From Patiria pectinifera (Eukaryota > Echinodermata > Asteroidea > Valvatida > Asterinidae): 64,000 nt of DNA. Location: assembly GCA_029964075.1 (NCBI GenBank), contig CM057148.1, forward strand, positions 28,327,916 through 28,391,915, given 5' to 3'. This document shows positions 10,749-63,824 of the stretch, in pieces. The stretch's first letter is position 1; each line of letters starts with the position of its first letter. The translations under genes were made by a program, and so were the position numbers. Under the pieces are notes generated by a model. That model saw only the letters and a program-made list of their open reading frames with translations. It had not been told where the DNA came from and searched no databases.

Positions 10749-11477
10749 GGCAGGCATATCTCCCTTTACCACACACGTGTGCTAAAGTCTTCTATATCCG
10801 TTTAATTTTCTCCTGTGTGGATCTGATCGTGTCTCCCTTGTCTCTTTTTGTCAAAGGGATTAACTTATTTTACGCTCGCTCAGCTCAGTGCACCATTAGC
10901 GTAGCTTTTGGTGCCGTAGCTCTACCGCGGTCGGATCACATAGCTGTTTGCACACCTATTTCTTACCGGCGCTTCCGCAAAATGAGCTGAAAATTGCAAC
11001 ATTTTGATTGCTTTCTGGGCGGTGGTCTTTTAAGTAATTGAACACGAAGAAGCAATTGTCGCTTCCTCATCCGCCCTGTCGCCATTTGATTTGCCCATTG
11101 CATCTTCAGCTTGACAGCTTATCTCATTTTTCTATTCATACTTTTTTCGCTGCGGTGTCCTGTTCAGCAATGTTCTGACGCAGTCATTGGGCCAGGTGTA
11201 CCGTGCAATTTTCCAGTCATAATGGCGGCGCGACAAAGCACACGAGAACCTTGAGTACATTATCTATTTTTCCCCGGATGGTTTAGTGTTGAATATTAAC
11301 CATCTCGTTTCATGGACAAGGTAGCAGGACCGCCTTACAGCTTTTAGCTCCATCAAAAAATTCTACAAAATATCAAAAACGAGACAACGGACCTGTAAAT
11401 AGATTATGCGCGCCTGTACACATTGTTAGAATGACCTCTCATTGATATACCAACAAAATGAAGTGGATTGTTTACCA
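10749..11477. other. Unassigned sequence right of the inverted repeat
   Basis: Similarity to the left arm stops at 10748. No gene or repeat recognised here. Confidence 0.6.
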
Positions 11478-12131
11478 TAGGAATATACAACATTTGCAAA
11501 ACATCTAAAAACAAAACTACCAAAATTGTATTGTGAAATACCTCCCTGGACTGTTAGTTAATCACAGTCTAAAGCATCCTGTAAAATCCTGACACCTGGT
11601 GTACTGACATTCTCAAGAAAAGTGAATTGATGGATCAATTTCCAACTATGGTCGGCTGACCATGGTTGGATACAAACTTGCTTTTTTGTAAAAATGCCTC
11701 CAATCTACCAAATTTTGTCCACATTTTGCGTGCAATCGGTTACACAACTGTAAACGGGTATACAAGCCAGCAAGATTGGTTCCCTGAACTTACAATTCTC
11801 TGACGTCTGTACATTGATCCGTTTCATCTGAAGAGGAGTCAGGGACCCAGACTACAGGAACATTATGTTTTTCTTGTTTTTTTCCAGCATCAACGAACGC
11901 AAAACTTTAAACAGGTCAGTGTATTTGCTATACAATACTAACTCCCAAATCCATCCATTTCTGAAAATTACAGCAAAAGCACATGTTATATAATTCCATC
12001 GAGCTAGAAACTAGTCTGAGCGGTCCATCTCTTTCGAACACTATGCCCGACAGCGACAGTTGGGCCCAACTCATCAAGTCATCATGAAAATGAATGAATG
12101 AAGAAGAAGAAAAGATACAATTCCCTTTAAG
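11478..12131 (+). mobile_element. Family H element, diverged copy
   Basis: Shares with the copies near 50-51 kb the start GGAATATACAACATTTG, the word TAAAGCATCCTGTAAAAT, the central palindrome CAACTATGGTCGGCTGACCA, the GGAGTCAGGGACCCAGACTA word and a final AATTCCCTTTAAG. About 130 extra bases lie before the last piece. Confidence 0.7.
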
Positions 12132-14518
12132 CTCTGTGCTCACTTGAGTATTCAGCTTGGAATCGCATTATATATGGTTTGTATTATTTTCATCTCCGTG
12201 ACTTTTTTTCAAAGGCAAGTCATTACAATCGCATCTTCCCATTATTACCTCTTCATTTTCTATACAAATCCTATCAACAAGCTTCCATAGCAGGGGAGTA
12301 GAAACGACCAAGATTGGGGTGTCTCCTATGCATGTACTGTCCTCTTTCAACTTATCTGACAGTAACCGACCGACTGACTGACTGACTGACAACTTGTCAC
12401 GTGCAACTTAGATTGGTTGTGGATTGGTGAAGATCGACAGCCGGGCAGCGCTATTGCATAGGATCACCCCGTATAACGTCAATGAATGGGTAAAATCTGA
12501 CCCACTGTGTAGAATAGATGCATGAACAGATTTCCAGTGAACAGCAATTCTGGGACTAGCTATGCTTGACGTGCCTATTTTGTCGGGGTGAGGGGCAGAG
12601 TCGAGTATTGGGCATCATCTTTGCCAGCTACCCTGCTCTGTTTTTCAAAACGTATGTGGCCAATGACCTGTGTATCCTATTATTCGAAATATACATATTG
12701 GGGCTGAAATGCAAACGGTTACAGACTTAACTGAATGTGTGCGATGACGTTCACGTACGTTGTCGTCCAAACATCAAGCTGAAATCGATTTGCCGAGTTT
12801 CTAATATGACGTAGGCCTAATTAGCTGTGTCGAGTATACAAACCGATCCTCAATCTAATTATAAACTATTGATTGGTCATACGCAGAGAGTACATCGTTA
12901 TTGTGTCAGATTTTGTGTAGAATTTACTGGTCGCTGGCAGCGAGAACGGCTCACCAACACACTGTAACAGCAATAATGTAAGGAAGTATAAGATTACTGG
13001 AGTCAAGTCGGCATGACTAGAATCAGGATTGCTGACTCTACGAACACACAAAACTGAGGAGCACTCTGCTGATTATACCACTCAATGCCTGTGGCTTGTT
13101 TGCCAATTATTGGTTCCATAAGAGGTAAACCCAGCCAAAAAAAGACAAATCAAATAAATCACTGAGATGTGGAACGGTTGGAGAACCAATCCAACCTAAT
13201 TGCATTCTCAAAATGCAAAAGGAAAATCTGACAATATTCATAAATTCTTAGCCTTGGTATCCTGCGTCACCGAATAATTAATAAAAAAACTACGTATGAT
13301 TGTATTTTCTATTTTTTGAAATTCCTTTTAGAAATGGTTTCAAAAGGCAACAGATATTACTCACTAGATTCCACCACAGAAACTGAATAAATAATCGTAT
13401 TATGTCTTTGGCATTCGGTTTGAATACAGTTCAAATTGATGCACGGTTTATAAATTTGAACTATCTTAATTGTGTTGTTTTTGTCAGTAGATTTTAATTG
13501 CAAGTCGTGTACGTCTATATCAGCAATGATGAATTAAGTCCAGAAAGAAAAGATACGTAATGCTAAAATTGTTTTCTGGACACTGGTAATACATTTCAAA
13601 ATGAAAGTGAAACTTGAACTATCATTTTCCGGCTAACATTTCACAGAACGTGTTTTTCTTGCAGGAGGTGGAATGTGCGGCTTGCCTCTTCACAAAAACT
13701 CAAGTAGACATTTTATTTGTCTGCTTTTGGTTTCAAGTAGACATTTTATTTGTCTGCATTCAGTGACTGTGCTGAAATCTTAAAACGGTCGTTTCATCTT
13801 ATTTGACGTCAGCAAGCAGTTTTATGACGGATACAATATTAACTGGAGAACAAAGTCTTTAAAACGGAAAAGCACGTGGCTGTCATGTCTTATCGTGTGG
13901 GAAAACAACAGCGGCAAATGATACGTAAAGCTTCTACGAGAAAATAAAATTCGTTCGGTCCACCGTAGAGTCTAAGTATCAGATGCATCTGTACTGACTG
14001 TACAAACTTCGAAAGCGAAGAGTTCGAATTTGGACATCCCGAATCAGTTCTCTATGATTTTAACTGAAAACCCCAGCGTCCTGCTGGTTTGTCCGTTCGA
14101 TTTAATGTTGACACGGCACATCCCACCATACCAACTGGATAACAGCCCAGATTTCTTGAAGGGTCGCTATGTCGACTTTGGTAATGTCAATACAATTAGA
14201 GCGGGGCGTGTGGTCATAGGGGCTGGTTGTTCAGGGCATATCTCACGTCGGCCTATTGTCTATTTGCATATGCTCCGTTTGACTTGATGCCTGTCCATTT
14301 GTTAACCATTCGAGTCCCTTATCTATCAAGGGACAAATGACCAACTCAGAAAATACCTTATATATGACATTATAATGCATTTGTATCATATTTTTTTCTA
14401 AGATGTTAGGTACAATAGTCATCGCTTTTCATTTACTTGCTTTTGGCAGAAAGAGCAGGAGGAATATTCAGATTTTCTTTCCATTTGGATTAATGTAAAA
14501 ATAACAAATTCTTTCAAT
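12132..14518. other. Unassigned AT-rich sequence
   Basis: Contains a (GACT)n run near 12368-12390 and the tandem pair at 13699-13759. Reading frames are short and unsupported. Confidence 0.6.
13699..13759 (+). repeat. Tandem pair of a 34-base unit
   Basis: CAAGTAGACATTTTATTTGT and CTGC occurs twice with a 34-base offset. Confidence 0.85.
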
Positions 14519-21336: not shown

Positions 21337-24319
21337 TCAAAAGCCGCCGTTTTTTGTTTCTCACCACGAAAAAATGGGGGATGATCCAATAGCCCACCCC
21401 CTGGTCCAAAAGTGGAGGGGATATATACCCCCACCCCCCCCCCCGATTTACGTCCATGGAAACTAGCATACACGCAGAAATATTTAAAAGTATTTAGAGC
21501 TTGTTGCAGTACGAAGCAGAAGCAGAAGAGAAATTTAACACATTGCAGAAAACGACTGACGACATTTTTTTGCAACACCAGATGGTTACTTTTTTTGGCA
21601 TACGGGTACTTTCGGTTTCTCATGCAGCACAACAAACGGAAACTAGTGATGACGAATGAAAAGAACAGCAATGATCCAAAGATGGCATCGGAAACAAGGT
21701 CTAAAATCATTAACGCTCCAAGATATTGTAATTTTGGGGGGTTTAATGAGACGCAAATAAAATGAGATCTACATACACACAGCAGTGCTCAGAGAAGACT
21801 CCTAATGTTTCATTTCAATTAAGACTAATAAACCACTTGATATCCGCAAGATTATACTGGGAAACATACTGTAACTTCAGAACTTCTCCTCAAGTAAGGT
21901 GTTTTTGTTTGTGAATTGTCTCTCGAGATCTTACAATGAAAACAAGTTTGCTTGTATGCTTTCAAACATTCTGCCGCTTTGTTTTTCCTTGTGCGGCCTA
22001 ATGACAGCTTATCTCTATCGAAATGTTTAAAAAAGAAGAATATCTTACTCATATTTGTATAAGTACCAAGAAACCACTTATACATTAGTGAACCCTACCT
22101 CCCTCCCCCCCCCCCCAAAGAAAGATTTGTATAACATTTTAGCTTGGTTCGCGGTAAATAGGAGTGATGTTTGAGCCGTATTCCTGGAATTGCCACGACT
22201 ATCGATGTGAATCAAATCTACTGACTTATGGAACCTAAAAGTACAATTGTCCCTACAGTTAAAGTTCAAAAGTTAAGCCAAGTTGCCCGGTTACTGGACG
22301 TCGCTACGCGCTCGCTGGCAAAGTAGTCAAATTTCACACATTGTACTTTTACTCTCGCATTGACATTAGTTGGTTTCCGGACAACCGTCTTCAGAATGCG
22401 CCAAGCAACAATATCATAATTAAACGAAGTGTGGAAATGGAGAGGGGGGGGGGGGGCTTACCTGTTGTGAGCACACAGGCAGAGCATAGCCAGAGTAGCA
22501 ACACTATCATGATACGCCTCATGGTTCCAAACCTCCGTCAGCCACGAAACCTTAAACCCGATCTCTTTCCCCCTGCGTCGAAACCCGTACCCTCCTTCGC
22601 TTGCCTGTCGCTGTCAGTGAATCAAGTGTACAATGTATTTTCCCGTCAAGTCTATACAGACTGTTTGATGTGACAAAACCGCATGCGAGTAAGCCGCGAA
22701 CTAGCTTCACGCGCTTGTACTTCAGTTTGTAACTGGTCGCCACACAATTCTGAATCTGGGTGGTTGTGCGTGGTGTCTGCTATATAAACGTCAGTTGTAG
22801 AGTGAGCGAGAATGTGAATGGTGGTTGGTGAAACGTGTGGTAGTGGTTGAGACAGTGACGTTATGACTAGACCACTGATGGCTCGATATAGACAACCTGT
22901 CAAGTTGTGGTCTTGTAATTGCATGATCAACTGCGCAACGCGGCGAATTTCAGTTGGCGCTGCTTACACCTCCAGTTTCTCTAATATTAATCCTTGCGTC
23001 TGCGCACAACTTGTCCATTGCCGGGTATCACAGGAATGCTGTCACGAAAACAATTTGCGAATCTGATCGACTTGGATGAATTAGTGTACGGAGAGCAGCG
23101 TTAGGTTGTAGATTGTGAATAAAACAATGGAAGTCTTTTTGCACATGTGGTCTACACAATAGGCCTGAGTTAGCATATCCATTGGCATTATACGGTAGCC
23201 CACAAGTGACAGTCAATCAGTGAGACAGTCTTCCAGTGCGATGGCACAAAGTGGCCATGACCCTCTGGCACCAGCAATTCACTGTTCAGATTCTCTTATT
23301 ATGAACCATGTTAAAGTTTTAACTAAAACTACGAAGTCTTCAAACCAAACAGAGAGAGTACTATTATTGTGCCAATTTTACCCTTTTTTCTCAAAACATT
23401 TTGCTTTGTCGTTCTTGAAAGTAAATACCATTGTTTCAATACATGGGCGCCGATTAACACTGTGTTGCTGTTCATGTAATGCGTAGATTTTGTCAATGCT
23501 CAAGGACAGTTTGTTGACAGTGTTTTCAGCTGTGTGTAGACCTATTTGTCTTATATTCCATGAACTGGAACTGGTCGAAACGAAAGATACTCATTTGAAA
23601 ATAATTTGATTCAGTTCACGCATGAAAAAATACACGACAATTAAACAACATGAAGAGCAAATAATATGAACAATTCGACTAGAAATAAAGTGCCAGTTGT
23701 TGAAAAAGCCTACGCCTGTGTCGAAAATAGGCCTACCACGAGCAACATAGACTTTTATTCATAAATCAAAGGACACAAATACAATCACGTAATCACAATG
23801 ACTTTTTTTTCTACAATCTATAATTATATCCTCCGTCTTTATTCTCCTGATTCCTCCGATCATTTAATGTTCACACAGCAATGGCATATACCCGCCGTCT
23901 GAGTATCCGGGCCAATGTGGAAGGCGCACTGAAATTACTAGAATGTTCTCCACAGCGCATTCGATTTGTCGAGTGAACCGGCAAACAGGAAAAACGGGGA
24001 AAGTAATGCGACCGTGCCATGTTCATAGTCACACCTTGAATGTGAACAACGTTTATCATTTAAATTGTTTGCAATAGCGGTTTAAATGTTAATGACTGCG
24101 ATTCATCTGTTTCCCCAAAAAGGAAGAACACGCTTCCCTCTGAGGGCCGTTGTGAGTGAGATTTAAAACAAGAGCATAGAAGTTACTGAAAATATTGTGC
24201 GATGGGCCTAACCAATTAAGCTCCCTAAGAATTCGTTTTTGCTTTAAAGCATGTACCATGCAAAAAGTACGGTCCTGTGATATAAACTAATAACGTAAGA
24301 CGTTGAACCGTACAGTTTC
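21337..24319. other. Unassigned sequence with homopolymer runs
   Basis: C or G runs at about 21428-21442, 22106-22117 and 22444-22455. A CTATATAAACG box at about 22779 could be a TATA element, but no downstream gene is apparent. Confidence 0.5.
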
Positions 24320-24430
24320 TATTTTTAATGCGTAATGCCGGTGTCATATGAAAATTCAACTCCTATGAAAATCGGACCCCTTTTCCCTATTATTGGTTAA
24401 TCCCTCTCACGTGACAGGTCACTCTCCCGT
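24320..24430 (-). repeat. Fragment related to the 3' part of family B
   Basis: Contains, in reverse complement, TTTTCATAGGAGTTGAATTT and CATATGACACCGGCATTACG next to a CACGTGA site, resembling the CATAGGAGTCAAAATTTCAT to CACGTGACGG stretch of family B. A similar fragment is at about 44760-44830. Confidence 0.45.
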
Positions 24431-27400
24431 ATGCGATCCTAAAAATAGCATATTATCGTACTTACGTATGCGCAATACTACTAATGAATCCACATTTCAT
24501 GGAGCCGGATATTCACGCTACACCAGCATGTAATATTTTATCACTGCGTGAAAGTTTCAAAGGCCATTAAAAAAAGAGCCGCGTAATTCTGATAAGAAAA
24601 CGATCAAACGTTATTTTTAACGTCGTTTCCAATAGTAACCCCTGGGTGGGAAACTTGCTTCCATTCATGTATCCTGATTAATGAATTGATATCGTGTACT
24701 TGGTGTTTTTATTTCTACGTATTTACGTATCTTAACGGTCAATGTGAATTATTACGTCCATTACACCTCAAAAAAAAAATCCCCCATACCATTTTACTCA
24801 TAAAACAAAATGTGTAATGTGATACTGCATAATGGCTGGATACAATTGTAACAGTTTAACTTTGAAGACAATCGTGTTTTCGGATCTCACGCCGCGATGA
24901 ATTGATTCTTTGTTTTGTACCCCAGACCCCGCATACAAAACAAACACTGATTTACAGCTCAGCCAGCCACAATACTATTCTTAATTTGCATGTGCAAGAT
25001 TCTTGAACATGCAAATGATCGAATACCAAGGTGAGATAGCACGCAGTGGTGGGCGTACTGCTCGACACCATGGGAACGAGATTGGAAAACGACCAACTAC
25101 CGAGTGCTTCCGACCACTCGTAGATACTGCAGTATTAGGCATCCTTGATCAGTGTCCGCGGACGTATACATTCACGTGAATGCAAACATCACTTGGTCTG
25201 ATTTTAAGCCAGATAATGGCTGAATAAGAAAGACTGGGTATTTTTTGACTTAAAGGTCCGTATTTTGATTGATGGTTTTGCATCAGCGGCAGCGTGGAAG
25301 ATCTGACAATAGACAAGGATAAACAACCACTACGGATGAAAGTTCACTGTCAGAATTCCCGAGCTCCCGACGGCTGTTTGATTAAAGCAAGGGAGTCTAA
25401 TAGCGAATATTGATGGTGACGTTCGTAACAGGATGGATGTAAGGATATTCAAGGATGTATTTCGTACAAATCGAGTACCTGATCGTTTACACTTAGCTTT
25501 ATGTCCGTTTACTGTAGAGAAGATAAGGCCATGCAATTAACTCAATAACTACTTTAGGTTCTTCGGCCTGTAGGTGTCACCTCTACAGACATACACGAGC
25601 CGTCGGGTGCAAGACACCAACATCACGAAACAGGTGTTCTTTGGGGTCCCGTTTTCGCCCGGTGTGCGCAGAGGAGAACACTTCGCGCGCTCTCTGCAAA
25701 ACAAACACCTCGCCATTATATTCCCATTTCCTACGGGCCCCGTCCGTTATCAATGACTCTCATTACAGACTTAAGATTTGTCAGCACGTTGTTTTCTCCA
25801 TGAGGATGAAGGCATTGAAATCTAACGCCAGAGCTAAAGATCAAGGCGTTATTTCTCCTGACTCCAACCCTCTTACCCTGACACCTTGACTTAGTCTGCC
25901 ACAAACATTTAATTATTCATAACGGAGCGATTGTGACTTGCCGACACAACTACCACAGGTATGGAGTCCACGGTTGGAATTCTTGGACGGGAAGTAATGC
26001 TGCTGTTTAGCATAGCCGTGCGCGACCACATTTGAATACATAAATGTCAGGTGACATCCAAACCTGCGTATTCTTGTCGAAGTTTGTACTAACTGATATT
26101 AACCTGAGTGTCGTGTATAACACCAAAACCCAAGACAAACACAAACAGTAACTCTAAGCAAGTTCCCACTTTACATAGGCCATTGACCTTTCCAAACCAT
26201 GTGATCAACACAGTAATGTGCTATATACCATGTGCATGTGACGTCATGCCGATAGGCAACCACCGGGCAACCCATACATGTACATGTGAGCATATTGTGC
26301 ATGTTATTTGGCCTACATTGTAAGCAGTATATGTCAACAATTAAACTATTAACATTTCAAGAGATATGCATGCAGTGCAGAAGAGAACTGTTTCCTGAAA
26401 GCCGGCATCACGTGACCCAACATCCAATTTGTAAAATGTCACATCGTCTGTAGGCCGTCCACTGCATGAGGGCGCTCTATGTCTCCGTTATGGGATGTAA
26501 ACGGACTCGAATACAATTAAGACATATCGATGCATGTTTAAAACCTTCTACAACTCTGATATTACGCTTCAATTTTGAGATTTAAGTAATGTTGCTAGGC
26601 TGCGTCAATGACAACAGTATTTCCGGTGTTTGTTCCCGGAAACTGACGTACAGCGCCCCCATGGTCATAGATGCCGCTGGCCTATCACCGAACAACCTCC
26701 GTGGAGTATTACTGCCCTAAATTTGGACCATAGTGCTCTCTTTTGGCAGTTATTCGATAGGATTGGTTCACACTTCAGCATGACCTTTAATATCTAGGTC
26801 CATTTATCCTAATATTATTAGGTGGAAGTGTACTCTCATCTCATTGATGAGCAGAGTGCAATCACCTTTATCACTGTTAGAACTTCCATAAAGTATAATT
26901 GTTCCTTGTGCAAGAAATGGAGGAGTCGTCAATAAAAGCAAATCTATTTAAGCTCAACCACAATTGAATGTATAACCTATTTCTGTGAAGTACTGTTTAA
27001 AATAACAATAATTCACCTCGAAATGTAGATATTGTTGGTTCATAAAACAACGAAAGTGAAGGATAAAAATGGTTTCTTTATATGGTTATTTGTTCATCTT
27101 GACACAGTCATTGTATTCCCTGCGTGCCAGGCATGAAAGATTAATATATAAATATCGAGTTAGTCTGTTTGTTGCTTATATGGAGACTGAGTTGAAATAG
27201 AAATACATATCAGACACACGCGTATCATTAGTGACAATGACGTAGAATTCATAGCACCTTGACCAAAATGACGTACGGATGAAGGTCACTGAATTATAGA
27301 TAGGTATGGCGACAGGTATCGACGTCGGCACAGTTGTATGGAAACTATTTATTTGATTGGAAGGTAAGCGACCCCGAAACAACACTCTTTGTAATGACAT

Positions 27401-27532
27401 GTATCAAAAATGGAACACAGTTAGTAAAAATCTTCCTAACGTTTTCACCGAACAAGGGTGACATTCAACTTCAAATGTACGAGGATGAGCTCTGCGCATG
27501 GTACACTAAAGTATGCAACCCCAGCATACCCC
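24431..27532. other. Unassigned sequence
   Basis: No coding or repeat structure recognised beyond single TACATGTACATG words near 26275. Confidence 0.5.
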
Positions 27533-27990
27533 ACCTCGTTCCCAGGGTGTCAAGCAGTACGCTCCCACCACTACCTGCTCTCCCACCCTGATACTGGATC
27601 ATTTGCATATCTTTTTTTATAATACGTATGCAAATGAGGAATAGTCTGGTGCCTATCTGTAGTGTCGGGGGTAAAAACAGAGTCAATTCGTCGCGGCGTG
27701 AGTTACGAAAAAAACATTGAAATTAATTTTACAAAGTTAGCCAGCCAAAATGCAGTATCACCATTTCATATTAATATGAGCAAATTGGAAAGGAAAGGAT
27801 CATTTTTGAAAAGGTGTGGACGTAATAATTACAACGAAAAAAACACGTTATACTTGTTGAAAATAACAACATCAAGTACACCGTATTATATCCATTACCT
27901 GCTAATTGCGCTATACAGGAAGCAAGCTCCCATCACGGGGCTTACTATTGGAAACGAGGTTGAAAGTAAAGTAAGCCCTGGGGACGAGGT
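27533..27990. mobile_element. TIR element with CCTCGTTCCCAGGG-type ends
   Basis: ACCTCGTTCCCAGGG at the left and CCCTGGGGACGAGGT at the right are near-perfect inverted repeats around 458 bases of AT-rich non-coding sequence. The 122-aa frame at 27662-28030 crosses the right end and is not a gene. Confidence 0.65.
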
Positions 27991-28320
27991 TGCAGCATAC
28001 CTACCTTTCAAGATTCGTGTTTCACTCTAACCCGGCGCTAAATAACACACAGTCTATAATAAATATAGCTAGGCCTTAATGCTGTTGTCCAACCTGCACA
28101 GTGTGCACGCGCCATTGCGGCAGGCGCTGCGGGTCCCTTTGTTTTCTTCATATTAATTTCCTCTGTTATTTCTATCAATTACCACACACAATGCACGAAT
28201 CAGTTCGATGCGACGCTTGGTTTATCGTTCAATATAATTTCCAGGGTGGAAAAATTTGATGGGGGAAGCTACGCCCACGTGCTGGTTTTTGTTGTTATTT
28301 ATTTCGCAGAATTATATGAG

Positions 28321-36281: not shown

Positions 36282-36290
36282 GGCGATACA

Positions 36291-37764
36291 TACTCCTAGA
36301 ACTATGAGGCTCCGTGTGAGCGGAGCCTCATAGAGTCAGAAGCCCGCAAAATTGCTGTCAACACAAAACACTAATTAAGTACAAAAACGTCCATTCCAAA
36401 TAAGCCATTTCCCACAGAACCGCTGCACAGTTTGCCCCTAAACTCCGTACAGTACCTCATGACATACTCACGTTATGTGCACCAAACAAACATCGGTGGA
36501 TTCTGTCTGTTTTTAGGCCAAAATGATGAAAAATATGCCCTTTCCGCACTGAGCCAACCTAACACTTGAATCGAGCACGCGCGCTGATATCGCAGTCATT
36601 TTCGGGTTCGATCGCTCGGAGCGCGCCGCGGGGGGTACGTACTTGCACTTGTACGCATGCGCGTACTATCAATCCGCTCCTACACCATTAGTCTGGTTCC
36701 CAGACCAAAAGATTCCGACTATTCCTGATGAATCTTAGGTCCGGTAGCCTCCGGTAATACAATGTATTACAATTTACGTCACGTGACTAAAACGGGAGGA
36801 ATTCCTCCTTTTTCCGAAAATTTCCGAAGTTTGCCGAAGTCGTTTCGTCGACAATCGGATAAAGCCCGAGTATTTCCGAGTATATAATATAGGTTTAATT
36901 AACTGCTAATTGCTTATTAATTTTATTTTAAATGAGTTGATAATTAATATTCATTGTTTTCATTTAGAAAACTTGAAATTCAACGACGATTTTGTGCATC
37001 AAATATACTCGGATCGTACGGCCGAACTTTTTGCTGCGTCATGTACAATTTTGAATTTGACGACCGTTACCGAGATTTTCCAAAACTCGGTCTTCATTCA
37101 GCTCCGCCTGCTAACAGTGCTTTTGGTTCCGTAATTTTGAAGATTCCAGATCAACATTACTCAGTGTTATCTTACGAAAACATCAAACTGTATTATTATA
37201 ATTATATGATATTACGAAGCAAGTGATTTATTTAAAAATTTGATCAGAACATTAAAAGCTACAAGTGATAAAGCGAATTCGGAAACGAAGCCGCGCTTTG
37301 AAAAAGGGCCATTAATGCCGTCATGTTTATTTTTAGCCACGGAGGCTGCCTGACCTACAATTTAGACGTGTAGACGTCGGGGGAAATTGTCAGGTCGGGG
37401 AACCAGACTACTACACCATACCCCCCGCGGCGCGCTCCGAGCGATCGAACCCGAAAATGACTGCGATATCACGCGCGTGGTCGATTCAAGTGTTAGGTTG
37501 GCTCAGTGCGGAAAGGGCATATTTTTCATCATTTTGGCCTAAAAACAGACAGAATCCACCGATGTTTGTTTGGTGCACATAACGTGAGTATGTCATGAGG
37601 TATTGTACGGAGTTTAGGGGCAAACTGTGCAGCGGTTCTGTGGGAAATGGCTTATTTGGAATGGACGTTTTTGTACTTAATTAGTGTTTTGTGTTGACAG
37701 CAATTTTGCGGGCTTCTGACTCTATGAGGCTCCGCTCACGCGGAGCCTCATAGTTCTAGGAGTA
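36291..37764. mobile_element. Fold-back element with about 347-bp TIRs and 9-bp target duplication
   Basis: The ends TACTCCTAGAAC and GTTCTAGGAGTA are bounded on both sides by the direct repeat GGCGATACA (36282-36290 and 37765-37773). The inverted arms run about 36291-36638 and 37419-37764. Each tip carries its own 32-base hairpin built on CTATGAGGCTCCG. Long TIRs plus a 9-bp duplication are the pattern of Mutator-like elements; that class is inferred. A second element (36689-37410) is inserted in the loop. No transposase frame is visible. Confidence 0.88.
36689..37410. mobile_element. Nested TIR element with its own 9-bp target duplication
   Basis: 722 bases with inverted ends TAGTCTGGTTCCC and GGGAACCAGACTA (about 18 bp imperfect), flanked by the direct repeat CTACACCAT (36680-36688 and 37411-37419). 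The interior is AT-rich without a convincing frame. Removing it and one CTACACCAT restores a 743-base palindromic outer element. Confidence 0.88.
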
Positions 37765-37890
37765 GGCGATACATTCGTAAAATTCAATAAAATGCACCCG
37801 GAACTGCCGATGGCAAAAACAAGGGCCCGCTTTCTAAATTAATTTTAAAAAGGGCACTCCACCACTTGTTCAGAAAAAAGGGCACTCTTT

Positions 37891-38252
37891 AGGCCAAAAA
37901 AAAAAAGTCTCCGGTTTCTGGTATGCGCGCGCGTCGCCGTAGCCATGCGCGTCGGCAAAATGAAAAAGTTTTTTTTTCAATACAAGATGATGTTTCAAAA
38001 CCGCCAAACTCACTGGTTTGACTGGAATTCTGCTGCTGCACAATTTTAACGTGTTTTTAGATGGGGTTATGATCGAGAATAAGATTTATGTGGCCTCTCT
38101 GGACTCCCATATATTTGCACTAAGTTTAGTCGGGCACCATTTGCAGTCATCAGCCGAAATTTGAAGCCAAAAAAAAAAAAAAAAAAGCCGCGTCGCCGCA
38201 CCACTTTTGGGGCAAGCTCCATACCAGAAACCGGAGACTTTTTTTTTGGCCT
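37891..38252 (+). mobile_element. Family C TIR element
   Basis: About 362 bases with ends AGGCC-A(n)-GTCTCCGGTTTCTGG and its complement. Just inside are CpG-rich blocks (GCGCGCGCGTCGCCGTAGCC on the left; GCCGCGTCGCCGCACCAC on the right). The interior word GTTTGACTGGAATTCTGCTG is shared with copies at 40579-40954 and 59742-60115. No reading frame. Confidence 0.88.
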
Positions 38253-38689: not shown

Positions 38690-39397
38690 AATTTAAAAAC
38701 ATGCAAAACGAAATCAGGCCAACTTTACTCACTCTTTAGCCAGCAAGGAAAGAATGTTGCAACCTGACGCCATGTACTCCTACACATGTAGAACTATGAG
38801 GCTCCGCGTAAGCGACGCCATGTACGTCGCACATACTTTTGTAGGTAGTCTTAGCAGTAGGCCTTCCATCCTACCGTCCAACTAGTCCGAAAATTTGGGA
38901 CTCTCAATACTGTGTATGAGAGTCCCAAAACTTAAGGTATTGAAAACATGCAATGCAAGAAAATAGACTGGCACCTAAAACAACCAGTCCAAGACAGCTT
39001 CAGTACTGCATCAATCAACTATGCCACAAGCATGACAAGAATTTAAGAAACATGTGGCATGAAGCGGGAACTAGTCTCAATTTACTACACATTTCTCCAT
39101 AGTCAAGCCACCAGACTATTGACACTGAATGAATAGGTCAATCTTTTCAAATGTTTGGACCATGGGTGGACATGTACCAGTCTAGTATTTAACACCATTT
39201 TGAAATCACTTGACTTCCCTCTCATGTGCACAATATTGAAGAAAAGTCTCCTATAAAAATTGAATTCAGTCTGCAAACTTGGTTGGTGAAATGCTGAGGA
39301 CATTTTCTTTGCTCCAGTGGAATTTTTGGAGAAATTTGCTGGCTAAACTGTGAGTAAAGTGGGCCTGATTTAGTTTTGCACGTTTCAGAGCACTCCA
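38690..39397. repeat. Inverted repeat pair upstream of NUP50
   Basis: The stretch 38699-38752 (ATCAGGCCAACTTTACTCAC, then TTAGCCAGCAA) is mirrored at about 39331-39390 (TTGCTGGCTAA, then GTGAGTAAAGTGGGCCTGAT). Probably a TIR element of about 0.7 kb. A perfect 13-bp hairpin TTTGGGACTCTCA / TGAGAGTCCCAAA lies within at 38894-38929. Confidence 0.65.
38788..38815 (+). repeat. Fragment of the fold-back element tip
   Basis: GTAGAACTATGAGGCTCCGC followed by GTAAGCG matches the terminal hairpin of the 36291-37764 element, so a third, mostly lost copy existed here. Confidence 0.5.
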
Positions 39398-40509: not shown

Positions 40510-43500
40510 GTACGTTGCAGATAAATATGGTTTTAACTTAGTTTTAATCTCTGACTGGTTTTGAATTCTATCCCCCTCAGGCCAAAAAAAAAAAAGTCTC
40601 CGGGTATGCGCGCGCGTCGCCGTAGCCATGCGCGTCGGCAAAATGAAGAAGGTTTTTTTTCAATGAAAGATGATGTCTCAAAACCGCCAAACTCACTGGT
40701 TTGACTGGAGTCCTGCTGCTGCACAATTTTAACGTGTTTTTAGATTGGGTTATGGTCGAGAATAAGCTTTATGTGGCCTCTCTGGACTCCCATAAAAAAT
40801 ACATGTATTTGCACTAAGTTTAGTCGGGCACCATTTGCAGTCATCAGCCGACATTTGAAGCAAAAAAATCAGGTAAAAAAAAAAAGGCGCGTCGCCGCAC
40901 CACATTTTGGGCAAGCTCCGTACCAGCAACCGGAGACTTTTTTTGGGGGGGCCTAATGTAGCCGTTTTCTCCGTGATACATGTAAGCATGATAAAGCTGC
41001 TGTGTTGGACGAGTGTGCTATACAAGATGAAGATTATTCCTCCTAGGGGTGTCCGTTTCAGGTAGTTCAGGAACCGGGTACCCGATTGAAAAAACACAGG
41101 TACCCGTTAATTAAAACTTAGGGTAAAAAAAATAATAATAATCGGTCTCTGGTCAGACCAAAGTTCCGGAATTGATGCGGCGACGCATTTTTAAATTGTT
41201 TTTTCAAGCTTCAATTGTACAGACAAGATGGGTACTATTTTGCTTATTTTGTGTCCTCATTATACATTGGTGTCCTCCATCATTTGCCTTGGTGCCCTTT
41301 ATCATTTGCCTTGATGCAATTTCCCCATTCCTTGGTGCTCCTTGGTACAAACATTTGAGGTGCGGCAATAGAGGGCGCTGTTGTAGCTTCCGTGTTAATT
41401 TGAAAAAAAAAAAAGTTGACGCGCATGATTAAAATCGACGCGCGCGCTGACCAGAGACCGAGTACTTTTTTTGTTGGCCTTACCTCAAAATCAAAATCTT
41501 GGAAGTTGCTGTACAGATTGTTCACCAAGGTTTGTAGATTCAATACTACCATGACTACCATCGGTGTGTCCAGACTTGTAACAAGATACAAGTGTGTACA
41601 GTGAGCATAGCTTTCAGTGTAAACTGTAACTTTTGCGAGCGTCATAAGTATGTTTTGTTTTCCCATGTTGCCCGGTTTACATTTTGAAAATTCTCCAGAA
41701 ATGACATTCAAAATTGTTCTTTGTTATTGTCTGAGAAGTAGTTTGTAAACTTGGTTACAGGTACCCGATAAGTTCGTTCAGGTACCCGATATTCTGGAAC
41801 CGGTTCCTAATATCAACATTCGGGTACTTGGGTACCCGGTTCCGAAGGTGTTGGTGCCCGCTGTTTTGTTTCACACAAAAAACTTGTGAAGAAAATACAG
41901 GCATCACTTACAGCAATCGCGTCGCGTGCACGGGGAAGTACCAACTCTGGACCACTGGTTAATACAAAATGTACCCAATGAGAGCCCAAATGAAATTTGA
42001 GATCTCCAGCGCCATTGTATAGGTGGTGATGACTGGTGATGAGAAAACAACATGAATCAAATTCAGTCCTGGGAACTTTGGCAGCCAGAACCAACAAATT
42101 CTGAGCATACCCCACGTGCAGTGTATTCAAGCTTATGCATGCACGTGAGATACCTATGCTGGGATATTCTTGGGTTCAAGCGCCAACATTCCCAGGACTG
42201 GACATGATTCATCTTGTTGATAATGCCCTCTACTGGCGTGGCGGTTTGACGGTGCTTTTCCCTAAGTTGTCAGTTTCATTTGAAAATTATTTTTTTCAGG
42301 GTGCCGCCCCATAAAAGTGTTGACATACATTTAGGCCTACATGTACCTCAAGTTAATGAACGGAAAAATATACATTATTGTTCTGAAGTAGTTTAACCAT
42401 TACCCTCAATGGTTCATTTGAATTATGCCAAATTTTGTTGAATAAGCCATTTGCGAGTGACCTACATGCTGTACATGTATACCCTTTGGGATTTACATTT
42501 GAAAAGCATCTGGTACACTGACTTGCTCAGAATGCTTGGCATATTTTAACTTTGAATTCTCCAGACCAAAGACACTGTTACTATATCACATGATTCGGGG
42601 CAAGCTCCCGCATAGTTACGTAAGAGACGCTGAGCACCAATACATTGTTCGCAATGGTTGAGAATGGCACAAAGACACCAGACTATGCCGGAGCTGGGGA
42701 TTGCTAGCATAAGGCTTGCCCCGAATCACGTGATATAGTAACAGTCCTGGTCGGGAGAATGCAAACTTAAAATGTGCAAAGCATTGGATTAATAACCCCC
42801 CTAGGCCCTTTTTGCTTAGAACCATCCTCATCAATCCTCCAAAATCCTCCAAAATTTTGCAACTCCGCCTACATTTTTCAAAATTGTCAGACAGTCCTGC
42901 CTCAAAATGCGTTCATCGTCAATCCTCCAAAATCCTCCTCATCCCAAAATTTTTCACTCGTGTTTAAAGGAAGGATAACCAACGCCAAATCCTTCAAAAT
43001 CATAAGACAGTCCTGCCTCAAAATGCATTCATCCGCAATCCTCCAAAATCCTCTTGTGCTTCAACACCATTCATCCTCAATCCTCCAAAATCCTCATTTG
43101 ATTCAATCACCATTCATCCTCAATCCTCCAGAATCCTCATTTGATTCAATCACCATTCATCCTCAATCCTCTAGAATCCTTCAAAACTGCCAGGAGTATT
43201 TTGGAGGAGTGAGGTGGGTTAGGGTTAGGTCAGCGCCCCGGAGTTTATTCATATTTACTCGCAAATGGTTTATTGAGTATGGTTATGGTTAGTACATAAT
43301 CATACGGCGCAGTGTTCAACATTGTATGATGTGCCTGATGTCAAGTGTACATTATGTAAATATGTTGAAAAAAAAATGTTGACAGCGGAAAAACTAATGA
43401 CTTGTTTTGCAGCCTGGGCAATTTCAGACTGCAGAAAATGAGGTCTTATCCCGACGTGTCATCCGAGTAGCCAAGCGCAGAGTAAAAGCAGGAGAAGGCG

Positions 43501-49500: not shown

Positions 49501-52500
49501 AAAGGCAAAACCCGATATAAAGTTTACATTTCCCTGACGCAAATTTCATGATATAAAATGTGATGCGATCAACATAAATGAGTCCGTTGTCGGGAATTTT
49601 TATTTAGAGATATAGGCCAAAAAAGGGCCACTTCATCACATCACTTCATCACATCTCTTGGTGTTCAGACTTCCATAACTTTTGAACTAAAGATGGTATC
49701 AGCATGTGGTTTTCACAGCAGTAATGCTGAGATTGTGCTCTTTTCAAATCTGTAATAACCAAAAATTGACCGGGGTCGACAAACGACACAAATACTTAGT
49801 CCCAATGTTTTTGGGGTGTTTTTTTTTTGGTTACAATTGCAGGTGTAAGATTTTTTACAAGAAAGGTGACGCCTACCAGGACCGTGGAGTGGGCATGCTA
49901 CACCTGAAGAAAACCGGCGACACATTGCAGCTACTCGTCCGAGCTGATACCAACCTAGGTAAAGAGGATTTATAATCAAAGTTGTGCATGAGTCAATAAT
50001 AACAATTCAAATCTCGAGTCAAGTCACAAGTAACGGGATTAACAGACCTGAGGCATAAGGACGCCTAGCATTGTGTGCCTTCTTCATGTTCTTATGGGAA
50101 CTGGTGGGAATATACAACATTTGGAAACATCGAAAAATAAAACTGTCAAGTTTTTACGAAATACCTTACTGGGATGTTGGTAAATGCCAGCCTAAAGCAT
50201 CCTGTAAAATTAGGGCACCTGGTGTCAAGTCATTTTCAAGAAAAGGGTATTTTTGTAAACATTTCCACCGGTGGTCGGCCGACCACCGTTGGAAAAACCA
50301 AACTATTTTTCAACTACTGCTCCAAATTTACAAATTTTTTTTCAGTCCAAGTTGTGTTTGCTATTGGTTACATGTTCATGAATGGGTGCAGGCCAGCTAG
50401 ACCGGTTCCCTTACCTTACAATTTTCCGACATCTTTAAATTGATCCATTTTATCTTCAGTGGAGTCAGGGCACCAGACTACTTAAACATTTTTGTTTTTC
50501 TTGATTTTCGAGCACAGAACTTCAAACATGTCAGTTAAACAATATTTGATCTATTATACTAACCCCTCATTTCTGAAAATTACGGCAAAAGCCAATGATG
50601 TTCATTCCCTTTTAACCCTAATAACCCTAACACTCCAGGGTGTTTTGGCTAGAAAGTCCTGCTAAATGCAGCAACATGCAACACTTGTCTAAGTGGCAAG
50701 CCTGCCCATTGCAGCAAGATCCATCAAGTCGAAAGTCTCAAGGCCAAACTGCCTCAGAGTCTGTGGTTCCCGAAGGCAGCAGGATACTACTGTGGCATTT
50801 TTCTATGGGATTAGCTCTCATTTCGGGCCGTTTATGCACTGGTGTTGATAGCTGAATACATCAAAGTGCACAAGACTTTTCCACCTGATGCACTGTGTGG
50901 GGTCTGACAGGGTTAGGGATAAGAAAGCATAAAACATAAATAAAGGAAAATGTGACGTCATTATGTCTTACTGCTATTGTCTTGAAAGTGAATGACTTTG
51001 GATGACTTCTGACTGACTTGATTCAGACACTGGGGATATTAAAGGGAATGTACATCATTGGCTTTTGCTGTACTTTTCAGAAATGAACTATTTGAGGGGT
51101 TAGTATAATAGATCAAATATTGTTACACTGACACGTTTGAAGTTTTGTGTCCGAAAATGCTGGAAAACCAAGAAAAACCAAAAATGTTCAAGTCGTCCGG
51201 TTCCTAGACTCTACTAAAGATAAAATGAATCAATTTATAGATGCCTGAAGATTGTAAGGCAATTAGGAACCAGTCCAGCTGGCCTACACCCGTTCATGAA
51301 CATGTAACCAATAGCAAACAAAATTTGGACTGAAAAAGGGGTCAAGTTGGCGCAGTAGTTGAAAAATAGTTAAGTTTTTCCAACGGTGGTCAGCCGACTA
51401 CCGTTGGAAATGTATACAAAAATATGATTTTCTTGAAAATGACTTCACACCAGGTGCCATAATTTTACAGGATGCTTTAGACTGTCATTTACCAACATCC
51501 TAGTAAGGTATTTCGTAAAAACTTGGCAGTTTTATTTTGTATATTTGTATATTCCCTTTAAGGGGGTTGAGTAGTCTTGACTTCTCAAGACAAATGCTGG
51601 TTATAGCAAGCATAAAGCCTTGGTCCCGACTGCATTTATGTGCACAGTTAAAGGGACTGCACTCCACTTAATACAAAATTCTGATATAACAAACATTTTG
51701 TTTAGGTCTGGCTGAGTTTGTATAGGAGTCAAGTGTTCATATTTGCCCCCCCCCCCCCCAACAACACCATCGAGTCAGATGCCCTTTCCTCTTCCCTACT
51801 TTCACATTTCAAAAGCTTCTGCCCCCCCCCCCTCCCCGAGGTGTTAAGAAATCTCTATGTGTACGGTGCACTGTTGTTCTTGATCAATGTTGCTAATACA
51901 CGTACATGTAAGTAAAGTAAGTAAAGTCTGTCCCGAGCCAATGTGGCTCATCAGGCCGTCGTTTATCTCCGGTTTCAGTAGCATGAAACGACTGAGAATA
52001 TTTCTACTCCCCCTGGATGGGATGCTAGTCCATCGCAGGTTACTCCCCAGCTAATGCCGGTACCCATTTATACTCCTGGGTGGAGAGGGGCAAGTGGGGG
52101 TGAAGTGCCTTGCCCATTTATACTCCTGGGTGGAGAGGGGCAAGTGGGGGTGAAGTGCCTTGCCCAAGGACACAATATATGACCAGCGGCTGGATTCGAA
52201 CCCCGGACCTCTGATCATGAGTCACGAACCCTAACCACTAGGCCACACACTCCCCTCACACGTACATGTACATGCAGTTATATATTCAATCAGCCAGTGA
52301 ATCTAATGTACTTTCTCATTCCTTCATCCCGTCAGGCAACGTCCTCCTCAACATCACACTCCCCGGCTCCCTACCAGTCAGTCGACAAGGCAAGAACAAC
52401 CTCCTCCTCATGACGCCCCTCAACCCCCCGGTGGACAGGACCTGTCCTACATGCAACAAGAAATACCCCAGGCCACAGGAGAGCAACGCTTGCGACAGCG

Positions 52501-55120: not shown

Positions 55121-55397
55121 AGGGCCATCATCACAGATTTGTCCTGTGAAAAAAAATATATATGTAGAATAACAATACGGGCGATTCACAATAGTGCGCC
55201 TCCAAGAGTTTGCAATGCGTTGGCCAATCACAATACGCGAAATCAGTCAACCTTTTCCAAACGCCCATTGGGTTGACCGATTTTGCGCATTGTGATTGGC
55301 CAACGTGTTGCAAACTCTTGGAGGCGCACTATTGTGAATCGCCCGTATTGTTATTCTACATATATTTTTTTTCAAAGGACAAATCTGCGATGGCCCT
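55121..55397. repeat. Near-perfect 277-bp palindrome
   Basis: Arms of about 130 bases with a loop of about 18 bases centred near 55260. Left arm words AGGGCCATCATCACAGATTT and GCGCCTCCAAGAGTTTGCAA are mirrored on the right by TTGCAAACTCTTGGAGGCGC and AAATCTGCGATGGCCCT. The inner part holds CCAAT-type ATTGGCCAA/TTGGCCAAT words. A second inverted pair directly follows. Confidence 0.88.
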
Positions 55398-56394: not shown

Positions 56395-56725
56395 ATAGAC
56401 TTTATGGGGAATTGTAAGGTCAGAGAATCAGTCTAGCAGGCTTGTACCCCTTCACAGTTGTGTAATCAATTGCAAAGAAAATGCGGAATAACTAATTATG
56501 AAAAATTAGGAGCATTTAAAAAAAAAAAAAAGTTTTCTCCAACGCTGGTCAGCCGACCAGCGTTGAAAAAAAATACCATTTTTCTTGAAAATGTCAGCAC
56601 ACCAGGAGCCACGATTTTACAGGATGCTTTAGACTGTCATTCCCTAACAATCCAGTAAGGTATTTTGTGATAATTTGATCATTTCGTTTTGTGATGTTTG
56701 CGAATGTTGTATCTTCCCTTTAAGA
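56395..56725 (-). mobile_element. Family H element, truncated
   Basis: Matches the half of family H from the GGAATTGTAAGGTCAGAG word through the palindrome CAACGCTGGTCAGCCGACCA to TCTTCCCTTTAA. The other third is missing. A poly(A) run interrupts it near 56518-56531. Confidence 0.75.
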
Positions 56726-59470: not shown

Positions 59471-60430
59471 TGTAGTATTACCCCATAATGAATGGGATTT
59501 ATTTGTAAACCAGCCTTTTGAAGACTGGCTACATGATACAGGTACAATGTACAATGTACAGCGCGTCCCAAAATACCCGCAACATTTTGTTTGCGTGGCT
59601 CTAGCGCCGCCGCGTAAACACGTACCGCCGTTATTGAAAGCTTGGGAGTCTTAACTTTATTCCTGGGGCCAATTTCATAGAGCTGCTTAAGCACAAAATT
59701 TGCTTAGGCGCAAAAAAAAAATTGCTTAATATAATCAGGTTAGGCCCCCCAAAAAAGTTTCCGGTTTCTGGTATGGAGCTTACCCAAAAAGTGGTGCGGC
59801 GACGCGGCTTTTTTTTTTTTTTTTAACCTGATTTTTTTGCTTCAAATGTCGGCTGATGACTGCAAATGGTGCTCGACTAAACTTAGTGCAAATATATGGG
59901 AGTCCAGAGAGGCCACATAAAGCTTATTCTCGACCATAACCCAATCTAAAAACACGTTAAAATTGTGCAGCAGCAGGATTCCAGTCAAACCAGTGAGTTT
60001 GGCAGTTTTGAGACATCATCTTTCATTGAAAAAAAAACTTTTTCATTTTGCCGACGCGCATGGCTACGGCGACTCGCGCGCATACCAGAAACCGGAGACT
60101 TTTTTTTTTTGGCCTAATGGTCACAGCCAGGCAGTTTTGTCATAACTGTACATGTAGCTGTAGTATTACCCCATAATGAATGGGAATTATTTGTAAACCA
60201 GCCTATTGAAGACTGGCTACATGATACGGGTATAATACAATGTACAGCTAGTCCCAAAATACCCGCAACATTTTGTTTGCGTGGCTCTAGCGTCGCCACA
60301 GAAACACGTACCGCCGTTATTGAAAGCTTGGAGTCTTAACTTTATCCCTGGGGCCAATTTCATAGAGCTGCTTTAAAGCACAAAATTTGCTTCAGCACAA
60401 AACAAACCCTTGCTTAATATAATCAGGTTA
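59470..60430 (+). repeat. Direct duplication of a 272-base unit around family C
   Basis: 59470-59741 and 60158-60430 are near-identical direct copies (CTGTAGTATTACCCCATAAT through AATATAATCAGGTTA), each holding the start of an F element and of element P. The first copy is broken by family C; the second continues into the nested F/P array. Confidence 0.82.
59742..60115 (-). mobile_element. Family C element inside a duplicated unit
   Basis: Reversed copy with all hallmarks (ATACCAGAAACCGGAGACTT at its right end). It interrupts element P after AATATAATCAGGTTA and lies between two direct copies of a 272-base unit. Confidence 0.87.
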
Positions 60431-61285
60431 CCGGCCAAAACGCTATGCGATGTACACCATGTACATTGCTTGTGACTGGTATTTAGCTGTTGTTTACTTA
60501 GCATAACAATCGCAAAGAGTTTTGGTGGGAAACCTGATTATATTAAAGCTATACTCCATCATTTGCAGCCATCCGAAAAAGTAACTGGCGTATTATTGTT
60601 AAAAAACATACATGTACTTGGTTGAAAGATAGTAAGTGAATCTCCCTGTGAAATTAATCTTTCTGGCAAGCTATCATTTTGAAGTAATCAACGAAAGAAG
60701 GCCTTTACAATGGTGCGTCTTCAGATGCACCGTAGGAAAATTTTAATTAGTAGTTCGTTTTGTTGTTCGGCGCAGCCCGCGCAAGCATTGGTACGACGCA
60801 CAGGCACGCGCGGTTGCTATAATTCGTCGGATCAGTGCGCGACATCGCGTATACATATAGCTGTAATTCAAAACAATTCAAAACATGATTCAGCAACTTT
60901 TGATTTGAAATTGAGATCCTAGAATGCTGTTTTTCTCGGAATAGACAGCTGAAGCTGAGCTGAAACTTCATCAGGTTAGTTGTTCAGTAACCTTCATTAG
61001 ATTTTAAACACTTGTGTTGCTTCAAACGAACAAAATGCACAAATTACAAATGATGGACTATATCTTTAAGCAAACTTGTTTTGTGTTTTACCCTATACAT
61101 TGTACAAATGTACCTCACATAAAGCTACAAAATACTACCGAGTAGTAACCTGTAGTATACATTTCTTTCCATACAAGTGTGCACAACACATGGAGTATTC
61201 TGTAGTACTTGGTCCTTGACCTCCAAAAAGCCCTTAGGACGTAAATTTTGTGCTTAAGTACAGGTAGCTCTATGAAAATGGCCCC
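60351..61285. mobile_element. Element P nested in family F
   Basis: Ends GGGGCCAATTTCATAGAGCT and its imperfect complement AGCTCTATGAAAATGGCCCC. An inner inverted pair TTAATATAATCAGGTT / AACCTGATTATATTAA (60414-60546) abuts the family D insertion. A partial P also occurs in the duplicated unit at 59664-59741, and a related fragment at about 31137-31195. Confidence 0.7.
60543..61070 (+). mobile_element. Family D element, longer copy
   Basis: Same ends as 17878-18260 (TTAAAGCTATACTCCATCAT; ATGATGGACTATATCTTTAA) and the same CpG-rich interior. The extra stretch 60897-61040 is either insertion here or deletion in the other copy. It sits inside element P, itself inside a family F element. Confidence 0.8.
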
Positions 61286-61436
61286 TGGTATTAAAGTATT
61301 GGTTTGATTTTCAAAAAGGATTTTGAAATGATTCGTCTTCAAATACATGTAAAGGCATGTCAAAAACAAACACAACTGATTTCAAGGAAAGTCAATCGCG
61401 CACATTTTTTCTGATGTGGAAATAATTCATCATGTT

Positions 61437-61748
61437 CATGGGCCTTATTCACGAGTCGGCCATATTGATTTGAAAGTGAGGTAAAATCTTAATTTTTGGA
61501 ACTTGCGAAAAGAAATAAAAGCATGTTAATTCCTAATTTATTCCAGTAGGCTTCAATGAATAATTTCAAATTTGTAATAAAAAATTGCCTGATGTTTAAA
61601 GCCAGATTAAAAAAAAAAAAAGAAGTAAAATAAGGCTGCATTATTCCTGCATAAATAGTCTGGCGACATCCCATTGAACAGTTAACACTTCATGAAATAC
61701 GTTCTGGGAACTCGACAAAAAAGACCAACTTGTGAATAAGGCCCATGA
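61437..61748. mobile_element. MITE in the loop of the nested family F element
   Basis: TCATGGGCCTTATTCACGA-type left end (around 61436-61454) and TTGTGAATAAGGCCCATGA right end form 17-bp perfect inverted repeats around about 310 AT-rich non-coding bases. Confidence 0.75.
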
Positions 61749-61876
61749 TGTGACGATCTCGTTGCCAAGTTGAGTTTGTTTTCAACATGCCTATATTTGA
61801 AAAGGAAAAATTTTAAAACTCTTTTAAATATCAAACTAATACTGGCCAGGGATAAAGTTCAGATTCTAAGCTTTAA

Positions 61877-62290
61877 CCCTAACCACCCTGAATCCTCCAA
61901 AATCCTTTTTGCAAATTGGAGGAATTTGCAGGATTGAGGTTACATGGCAAAAGTGGGTTGCTGATTTTGGAGTACGCACTGTGTCAAGGTCTTAGGCCGG
62001 ACCTTGTGTTGTTTATGCTCAGCCATGCATAAATTTAGTCCTTGATTATACATGTACGGTACTTGACATCCTCCGCACTGCTCCAGGATGTCACTGCCTC
62101 TGACTCAGCCTATGGACAGTCATAGACGGAGGATTTTGCAGGATTCAGGCAGTGGTCACCCCTCCATGGACCATATTCAAGAAATAGCGGAGGAATTTGC
62201 AGGATTGAGGCTATATTTTTCCATGAGGCCAATTGGAGGATTTTGCAGGATTGAGGCTACATCCTAGCAAAAAGGCCTAGGGAGTTAGGG
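61877..62290 (-). mobile_element. Family G element with TTAA target duplication
   Basis: 414 bases between TTAA (61873-61876) and TTAA (62291-62294), with ends CCCTAACCACCCT and CTAGGGAGTTAGGG. Several GGATTTTGCAGGATTGAGGC words lie near each end. It interrupts the right arm of a family F element exactly at the AAGCTTTAAAATG site that is uninterrupted in the copy at 43540-44211. A TTAA duplication is typical of piggyBac-type or Kolobok-type elements. Confidence 0.85.
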
Positions 62291-62391
62291 TTAAAATGGT
62301 GTAAAAACAACGAAGGTACAATGTACGTTTTTCCGTGCTGACGCTAGAGCTTCGTTAAAAAAAAGTTGCGGGTATTTTGGGTCGCGCTGTA

Positions 62392-62595
62392 CAATGTACA
62401 ACTACATACATGTATGTAGGACTTCTAGTAAATAGCAATTTGGCAAATCTTTATGCAAAGGTAAAAACTCTGGCTGGGAGCATCTTACTAGGGTTGCTTT
62501 GTCTTTTTTTTTGGGGGGGGGGGGAGGTAACCAAGACGCATATTAAAGGCATACTTTTGGAACTTTCAACACTTGAAAGCATTTTGAGAAGGCAG
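62392..62595. other. Probable 3' flank of the ten-finger gene
   Basis: A T run followed by a G run (about 62505-62524). No AATAAA on the - strand is seen, so the 3' end of the transcript probably lies further left, inside repeats. Confidence 0.4.
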
Positions 62596-63744: not shown

Positions 63745-63772
63745 TCTGATGCCTGGAACCCTGTTTATCCTG
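63745..63772 (-). other. Possible 5' UTR and splice acceptor of the ten-finger gene
   Basis: Read on the - strand, a pyrimidine-rich tract ending GTGTGCATACAG lies 28 bases before the ATG. It could be the acceptor joining a non-coding first exon, which would have to lie inside or upstream of the neighbouring zinc-finger gene. The site is seen in sequence; its use is inferred. Confidence 0.35.
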
Positions 63773-63824
63773 CTGTATGCACACAGACTAATAACACAAA
63801 TTTTGACTTGAATGATAAAGTACG

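Follow-up and report, generated by a model that had tools for sequence, protein, structure and literature searches.

Two nested insertions with exact 9-bp duplications: a foldback element carrying a MITE-like element in its loop

The window, by which we mean the whole 64,000-nucleotide stretch of DNA analyzed here, contains two insertions lying one inside the other, each bounded by an exact 9-bp direct repeat (Table 1). A first-pass annotation had described this arrangement; its coordinates and duplications were correct on direct reading of the region, and both a repeat search and a de novo scan bore out the nesting and the exact repeats. In the de novo scan, the entire 64 kb was searched for inverted 14-mers (up to 2 mismatches, within 8 kb) that have exact 9-bp direct repeats at their outer sides. 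The scan returned four cases: the outer element, the inner element, a third element at 27531-27992 (here, after its position, the 27.5-kb element), and an ambiguous, palindromic case at 59550-62398. A control scan in which the second end was reversed without being complemented returned no cases in the window.

TABLE 1 Positions of the nested elements, their subterminal hairpins, and related sequences in the window
Feature	Position	Strand	Evidence
Outer element	36291-37764	.	Inverted arms and exact 9-bp duplications
Target-site duplication of outer element, left copy GGCGATACA	36282-36290	.	Exact match to 37765-37773
Target-site duplication of outer element, right copy GGCGATACA	37765-37773	.	
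Left arm of outer element, 347 bp	36291-36637	+	Inverted copy of 37419-37764
Right arm of outer element, 346 bp	37419-37764	-	
Outer loop, 50-51 nt	36638-36688	.	Unpaired between arms; last 9 bases are the left inner duplication
MITE-like inner element of 722 bp with TAGTCTGGTTCCC at both tips	36689-37410	+	TIR and duplication
Target-site duplication of inner element, left copy CTACACCAT	36680-36688	.	Exact match to 37411-37419
Target-site duplication of inner element, right copy CTACACCAT	37411-37419	.	
Subterminal hairpin, left outer end; 14 pairs, one T-G, 4-nt loop	36302-36333	+	DNA fold -16.2 kcal/mol, z -5.7 vs shuffles; stem test p 0.0012
Subterminal hairpin, right outer end; 14-bp perfect stem	37722-37753	-	Stem test p 0.0008, both runs
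Subterminal hairpin core, left inner end, GACC..AAGATT / AATCTT..GGTC	36703-36741	+	Stem test p 0.0152 (0.0233 in earlier run); read from sequence
Subterminal hairpin core, right inner end, GACCT..ACAATTT / AAATTGT..AGGTC	37352-37396	-	Stem test p 0.0068 (0.0142 in earlier run); fold
Third 9-bp-duplication element, duplication CAGCATACC, tips CMACCTCGTYCCCAGGG	27531-27992	+	De novo scan; stem test
Older relative of 27531-27992, 67% identity	24605-25084	-	Flanks GAAAACGAT/GAAAACGAC, 8/9 alike
Outer-type end, decayed, with TACTCC as its tip and TAGAACTATGAGGCTCCGCGT after 8 additional bases	38775-38813	+	Match to the right outer end over 26 nt (96%; E 3e-6 within the window)
GACGCCATGTAC copies flanking the decayed outer-type end	38766-38777 and 38814-38825		12-nt direct repeat

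The outer element is a near-complete palindrome with arms of the length first proposed for it, about 347 bp. The repeat search and alignment gave 98.8% identity between the two arms, with 3 mismatches and one 1-base gap, and the inverted arms, with a loop of about 50 nt between them, account for nearly the whole element. We use "foldback" for the outer element as the name of a shape alone. Subtraction of the inner element and one copy of its duplication leaves 743 bp. No tandem repeats were found in the outer arms, tandem repeats being a common but not universal foldback feature (present in Tm1 and Tetris; see below). The one tandem match in the nested pair is 20 nt long, has two copies, and lies in the inner element.

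The inner element lies at the right edge of the outer loop, where it abuts the right arm. The left copy of CTACACCAT forms the last nine bases of the loop, in agreement with the proposal that the inner insertion lies within it, and the right-hand copy shares its last base with the start of the right outer arm. Over 18 nt, the inner TIRs match at 17 positions (94%); weak similarity then continues to about 70 nt, with a AGCCTCCG block common to both ends. The outer and inner sequences have no match to each other at E < 0.01, and no further copy of the inner element was found within the 64-kb window. Mutator-type MITEs are short elements that have no recognized coding content and carry a TIR and a 9-bp duplication; a high number of near-identical genomic copies is a further MITE trait. 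The inner element is like this general class, as described, in that it is short (722 bp), has a TIR and a 9-bp duplication, and gave no Pfam match for its longest open reading frame (ORF), the sole inner ORF scanned. It departs from the description in that its TIR is imperfect beyond 18 nt and its two ends carry different hairpin sequences.

The order of insertion, outer and then inner, is fixed by the way the duplications nest: the inner pair is contained in the outer element, whereas the outer pair encloses both elements. The insertions had also been taken to look fairly recent. The exactness of the duplications, which is the one line of support for this age, fits two fairly recent insertions; the identity of the arms, however, is unusable for dating. 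Conversion between its two arms can keep a palindrome's halves alike, so that their near-identity is no clock for the outer insertion.

Twenty-three frames of at least 40 codons overlap the region of the nested pair. The longest inner frame and one outer-arm frame were scanned against Pfam and gave no match, and no transposase match was obtained among the 10 window ORFs scanned, these two included. The other eight comprised one C2H2 zinc-finger ORF, one with a single match far below the curated cut-off, and six with none. The zinc-finger gene or exon has 412 codons and lies on the minus strand at 62599-63834. Its presence and the style of the repeats suggest that the genome is that of an animal. 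Rfam at gathering scores and an ARAGORN tRNA scan found nothing in the window. No transposase, autonomous relative, or second full copy of either element was found within the window.

The outer end sequence occurs more than once, since a further example of it, in decayed form, is present 1 kb from the outer element. This decayed end breaks off at about the place where the hairpin's second half would start, and a remnant of this sort would result if post-excision repair stalled at the hairpin and was aborted. The first nine bases of the 12-nt repeat GACGCCATGTAC would be its duplication, a suggestive reading at most, because 12-nt direct repeats in close proximity are also present at several sites elsewhere in the window (101 overlapping starts; shuffle mean, 0.3). 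The decayed end is itself enclosed by inverted 50-nt ends (AAACATGCAAAACG...) of 90% identity at 38697-39385.

The window shows no excess of matches to the outer tip at up to 2 mismatches (6 matches versus 3.4 expected; 12 of 100 shuffles reach 6), and fewer than 2 mismatches occur at the outer element's own two ends alone. Matches to the inner tip with up to 3 mismatches are in excess (30 versus 11.1 expected; none of 100 shuffles reaches 30). Some of these inner-type tips sit in 83-85-bp units with related subterminal sequence, and inspection of the flanks and a tip-pair scan revealed no 9-bp duplication for these units. No other inner-type tip pair with a clean duplication was found in the window. 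The intervals 6626-12170 and 22140-26348 were dropped as inner-type copies, each having 8 mismatches over the two tips and 1 in the duplication. The interval 59550-62398 was left out as a 9-bp element, its flank TACAATGTA being palindromic and its boundary ambiguous. This 2.8-kb candidate has CAGCGCG tips, is perhaps hAT-like, and holds several repeats found elsewhere in the window.

A search of a public viral contig collection with the outer hairpin pattern gave 0 matches. One inner-tip match in the collection was judged to be due to chance, with no duplication beside it in about 320 bases. A public prokaryote collection gave a single match to 20 outer-end bases, in a contig whose title names an alphaproteobacterial MAG. 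This match was also attributed to chance, about 0.5 being expected in a collection of that size; positions 3500-7000 of that contig, around the match, contain no inverted repeat of the outer element's kind. A blastn comparison of the window with both single-match loci yielded nothing at E < 1e-3. Literature searches with the literal tip strings returned papers that are unrelated by title, and none for the tip of the 27.5-kb element.

Other repeats are present in the window. Positions 1-3608 and 7214-10748 form a 3.6-kb inverted repeat (87.8% identity) on either side of an N gap of 500 bases (6714-7213); this is either a palindrome of very large size or a feature of the assembly. A repeat of about 500 bp with AAAGGGAATRTACA-like ends, perhaps at TTAA sites as judged by eye, is found as inverted copies at 50134-50612 and 51041-51538 (84.8%), with further copies at 11480-11980 and 56409-56717; units of 83-85 bp with inner-like tips are present in these copies, complete in three and partial in the fourth. 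Foldback-like DNA abounds in the window, and two more intervals, 3424-3910 and 55129-55392, are self-palindromic (85.9% and 87.8%). A repeat of 360-390 bp is present in three copies (37889-38244, 40579-40956, and 59740-60117) of 89-93% identity, the first beginning about 115 bp downstream of the outer element.

The ends of both elements contain subterminal stems, which the first-pass annotation did not mention. Each outer end consists of TACTCCTAGAA followed by a 32-nt hairpin, CTATGAGGCTCCG(C/T)GTGAGCGGAGCCTCATAG. At the inner element, each end has its own imperfect hairpin after the common 18 nt, and two core stem pairs, read from the sequence, differ on both sides between the ends (AAGATT/AATCTT versus ACAATT/AATTGT). 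When the left inner end was folded as DNA without constraint, the tip was paired instead, and only the AAGATT/AATCTT part was kept. The stems of the 27.5-kb element likewise differ between its two ends. Its older relative has a stem at one of two ends at best (p 0.043, or 0.053 in an earlier run, and p 0.92). At 31595, a long stem accompanies a solitary tip (p 0.0008 in the earlier run; by unconstrained folding, 0.008 of background as low) for which neither a second end nor a duplication was found.

These p values come from a test in which the stem must open at nt 11-18 within the first 75 nt, with 2,500 random window stretches as background (1,200 in the earlier run). In the three elements with exact 9-bp duplications, a stem opens 11-13 bases from the tip at all six ends, with p values of 0.0008-0.0152 (0.0008-0.0233 in the earlier run) that are descriptive, the nt 11-18 window having been chosen post hoc, after the outer, inner, and 27.5-kb ends had been seen. 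None of 11 control ends fell below p 0.15; these were tips of other inverted-repeat elements, some with approximate boundaries, and included both tips of 59550-62398. By unconstrained folding, the outer ends alone stand out strongly (0.0037 and 0.0010 of 3,000 background stretches fold as low). The corresponding fractions are 0.034 and 0.030 for the inner ends and a weak 0.15 and 0.13 for the 27.5-kb element. Six ends of the 83-85-bp units (at 11772, 50398, and 51193), examined by unconstrained folding alone, have no fold above background (0.30-0.58).

The duplications and the overall shape of the pair recall those of described families. MULEs have target-site duplications of 8-11 bp in the cited account (PMC6446971), and both elements here have exactly 9 bp. 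Long TIRs, which are usual but not universal in MULEs, are present in the outer element; the inner element has its 18 nt and the weak similarity beyond. The same account gives little evidence for MULEs in chordates (PMC6446971), which would count against a Mutator-like step only for a chordate host. Foldback-shaped MULE families with 9-bp or 8/9-bp duplications are described in nematodes (PMC3169594) and mosquitoes (PMC5225508). Tm1, a Mutator/Foldback family of Meloidogyne (PMC3169594), like the pair here has non-autonomous foldback-type and MITE-like forms with 9-bp duplications and includes one copy with a nested inverted-repeat sequence. The Tm1 TIRs, however, are made up of 13-15-bp tandem repeats that the outer arms lack, and Tm1 has a known Phantom-like transposase-coding copy, whereas none was seen in the window (PMC3169594).

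The Aedes aegypti MULE Muta1, as the cited passages describe it (PMC5225508), is alike in its 8- or 9-bp duplications, long TIRs, and palindromic terminal motif (10 bp, imperfect). It differs in encoding a transposase and in its subterminal tandem repeats of 12 bp, while the elements here have no tandem array; further, the palindrome here is a subterminal hairpin, with 14 pairs per stem in the outer element, rather than a terminal motif (PMC5225508). Tetris of Drosophila virilis is also a non-autonomous foldback element with no known transposase in the account cited; its complete copies have 8-9-bp duplications (8-10 bp overall), but its TIRs reach 1.7 kb and contain 220-bp tandem repeats, unlike those of the outer element (PMC4079207). 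Rehavkus is described as having a 9-bp duplication, a 26-400-bp TIR, a minisatellite before the 3' TIR, and a PHD-finger transposase (PMC6446971); its duplication length fits, as does the outer arm length, but the nested pair has no minisatellite. Tomato MULEs with multiple TIRs (PMC3310237) have, as described there, a different arrangement from that of the pair.

The nested pair is ordinary in kind, consisting of known types of parasitic DNA. Very probably, it represents two different non-autonomous cut-and-paste DNA transposons, one foldback and one MITE-like, served by a transposase with 9-bp staggered cuts, for which a Mutator-like enzyme is the likeliest candidate. The foldback element, whose arms of about 347 bp each and loop of about 50 nt come to 743 bp in the empty state, would have inserted at GGCGATACA, and the 722-bp MITE-like element would later have inserted at CTACACCAT in the foldback loop. 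Each would have been moved in trans by a DDE transposase making the staggered cuts. Such an enzyme would recognize the 11-17-nt tip and perhaps also the adjoining subterminal palindrome, and the similarity of the outer arms is probably maintained by conversion or by template switching inside the palindrome. Mobilization of a Mutator-like type had been suggested at the outset; the 9-bp duplication and the foldback MULEs on record are compatible with it, but the 10 ORFs scanned in the window include no transposase. On balance, we lean modestly toward a Mutator-like enzyme.

There is a smaller but still substantial chance that one or both elements were moved by something else: Merlin, which makes 8-9-bp duplications, a P-type or Rehavkus enzyme, or an undescribed DDE transposase with a 9-bp stagger. 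Such a mover gains plausibility from the polyphyletic nature of the foldback shape, as noted in the discussion of Tm1 (PMC3169594), from Tetris, whose 8-10-bp duplications are not linked to a known transposase in the cited account (PMC4079207), and from the 9-bp duplications and 26-400-bp TIRs given for Rehavkus (PMC6446971). Nevertheless, in the sources cited, MULEs are the main animal group that combines 9-bp duplications with foldback-type ends (PMC6446971, PMC3169594, PMC5225508), and Rehavkus in particular has a minisatellite preceding its 3' TIR (PMC6446971), whereas the tandem match here is only the two-copy, 20-nt one. It is far less probable, to the point of being very hard to credit, that the outer palindrome is an assembly artifact, or arose when a shorter element was duplicated locally in inverted orientation, with 9-bp repeats beside it by coincidence. 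Inverted duplication is common in the window, since other large inverted repeats, such as the 3.6-kb pair of 87.8% identity around the N gap, are present. But the exact 9-bp repeats stand precisely at the ends of the palindrome, the scan and its control found just 4 and 0 such cases, and the arms are not identical, differing at four separate places. Under the preferred reading of two successive transposon insertions, the pair amounts to transposon stratigraphy of an ordinary sort, in which two insertions of fixed order are cleanly recorded.

The subterminal hairpins common to the elements are the one feature that may be new. Among the matches listed in literature searches, judged by titles and abstract openings, there was no evident match for subterminal hairpins or inverted repeats with 9-bp duplications. 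The hairpins might be functional, as palindromes bound by a transposase (dimer) or as extruded cruciforms, within a machinery common to 9-bp-duplication elements; we regard this as possible but rather doubtful. The contrast between the six ends of the exact 9-bp elements, all with a stem at nt 11-13, and the 11 controls argues for a function, as do the two stem pairs that change on both sides between the inner ends and the unlike stems of the 27.5-kb element. On the other side, the position window was picked post hoc, the independent ends are few, and the outer ends are copies of each other. The unconstrained folds reach only 0.13-0.15 of background at the ends of the 27.5-kb element and 0.03 at the inner ends, the older relative of the 27.5-kb element has one stemless end (p 0.92) and one marginal end (0.043/0.053), and the six 83-85-bp unit ends do not fold above background. 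In addition, quasi-palindrome correction can perfect stems without selection.

In a broader proposal, which we consider unlikely, the 9-bp-duplication elements in this genome would have one arrangement of their ends in common. Behind a short tip, at about 11-13 bases, each end would carry a DNA hairpin that preserves its fold even as the sequence varies among ends and among families. If this were true, a group of transposases would recognize a structure, or an arbitrary palindrome beside the tip, and not a fixed subterminal sequence. If the hairpin pattern holds in other copies, it would provide a diagnostic end structure for a group of 9-bp-duplication elements and would bear on how their transposase finds the ends and why some elements become foldback.
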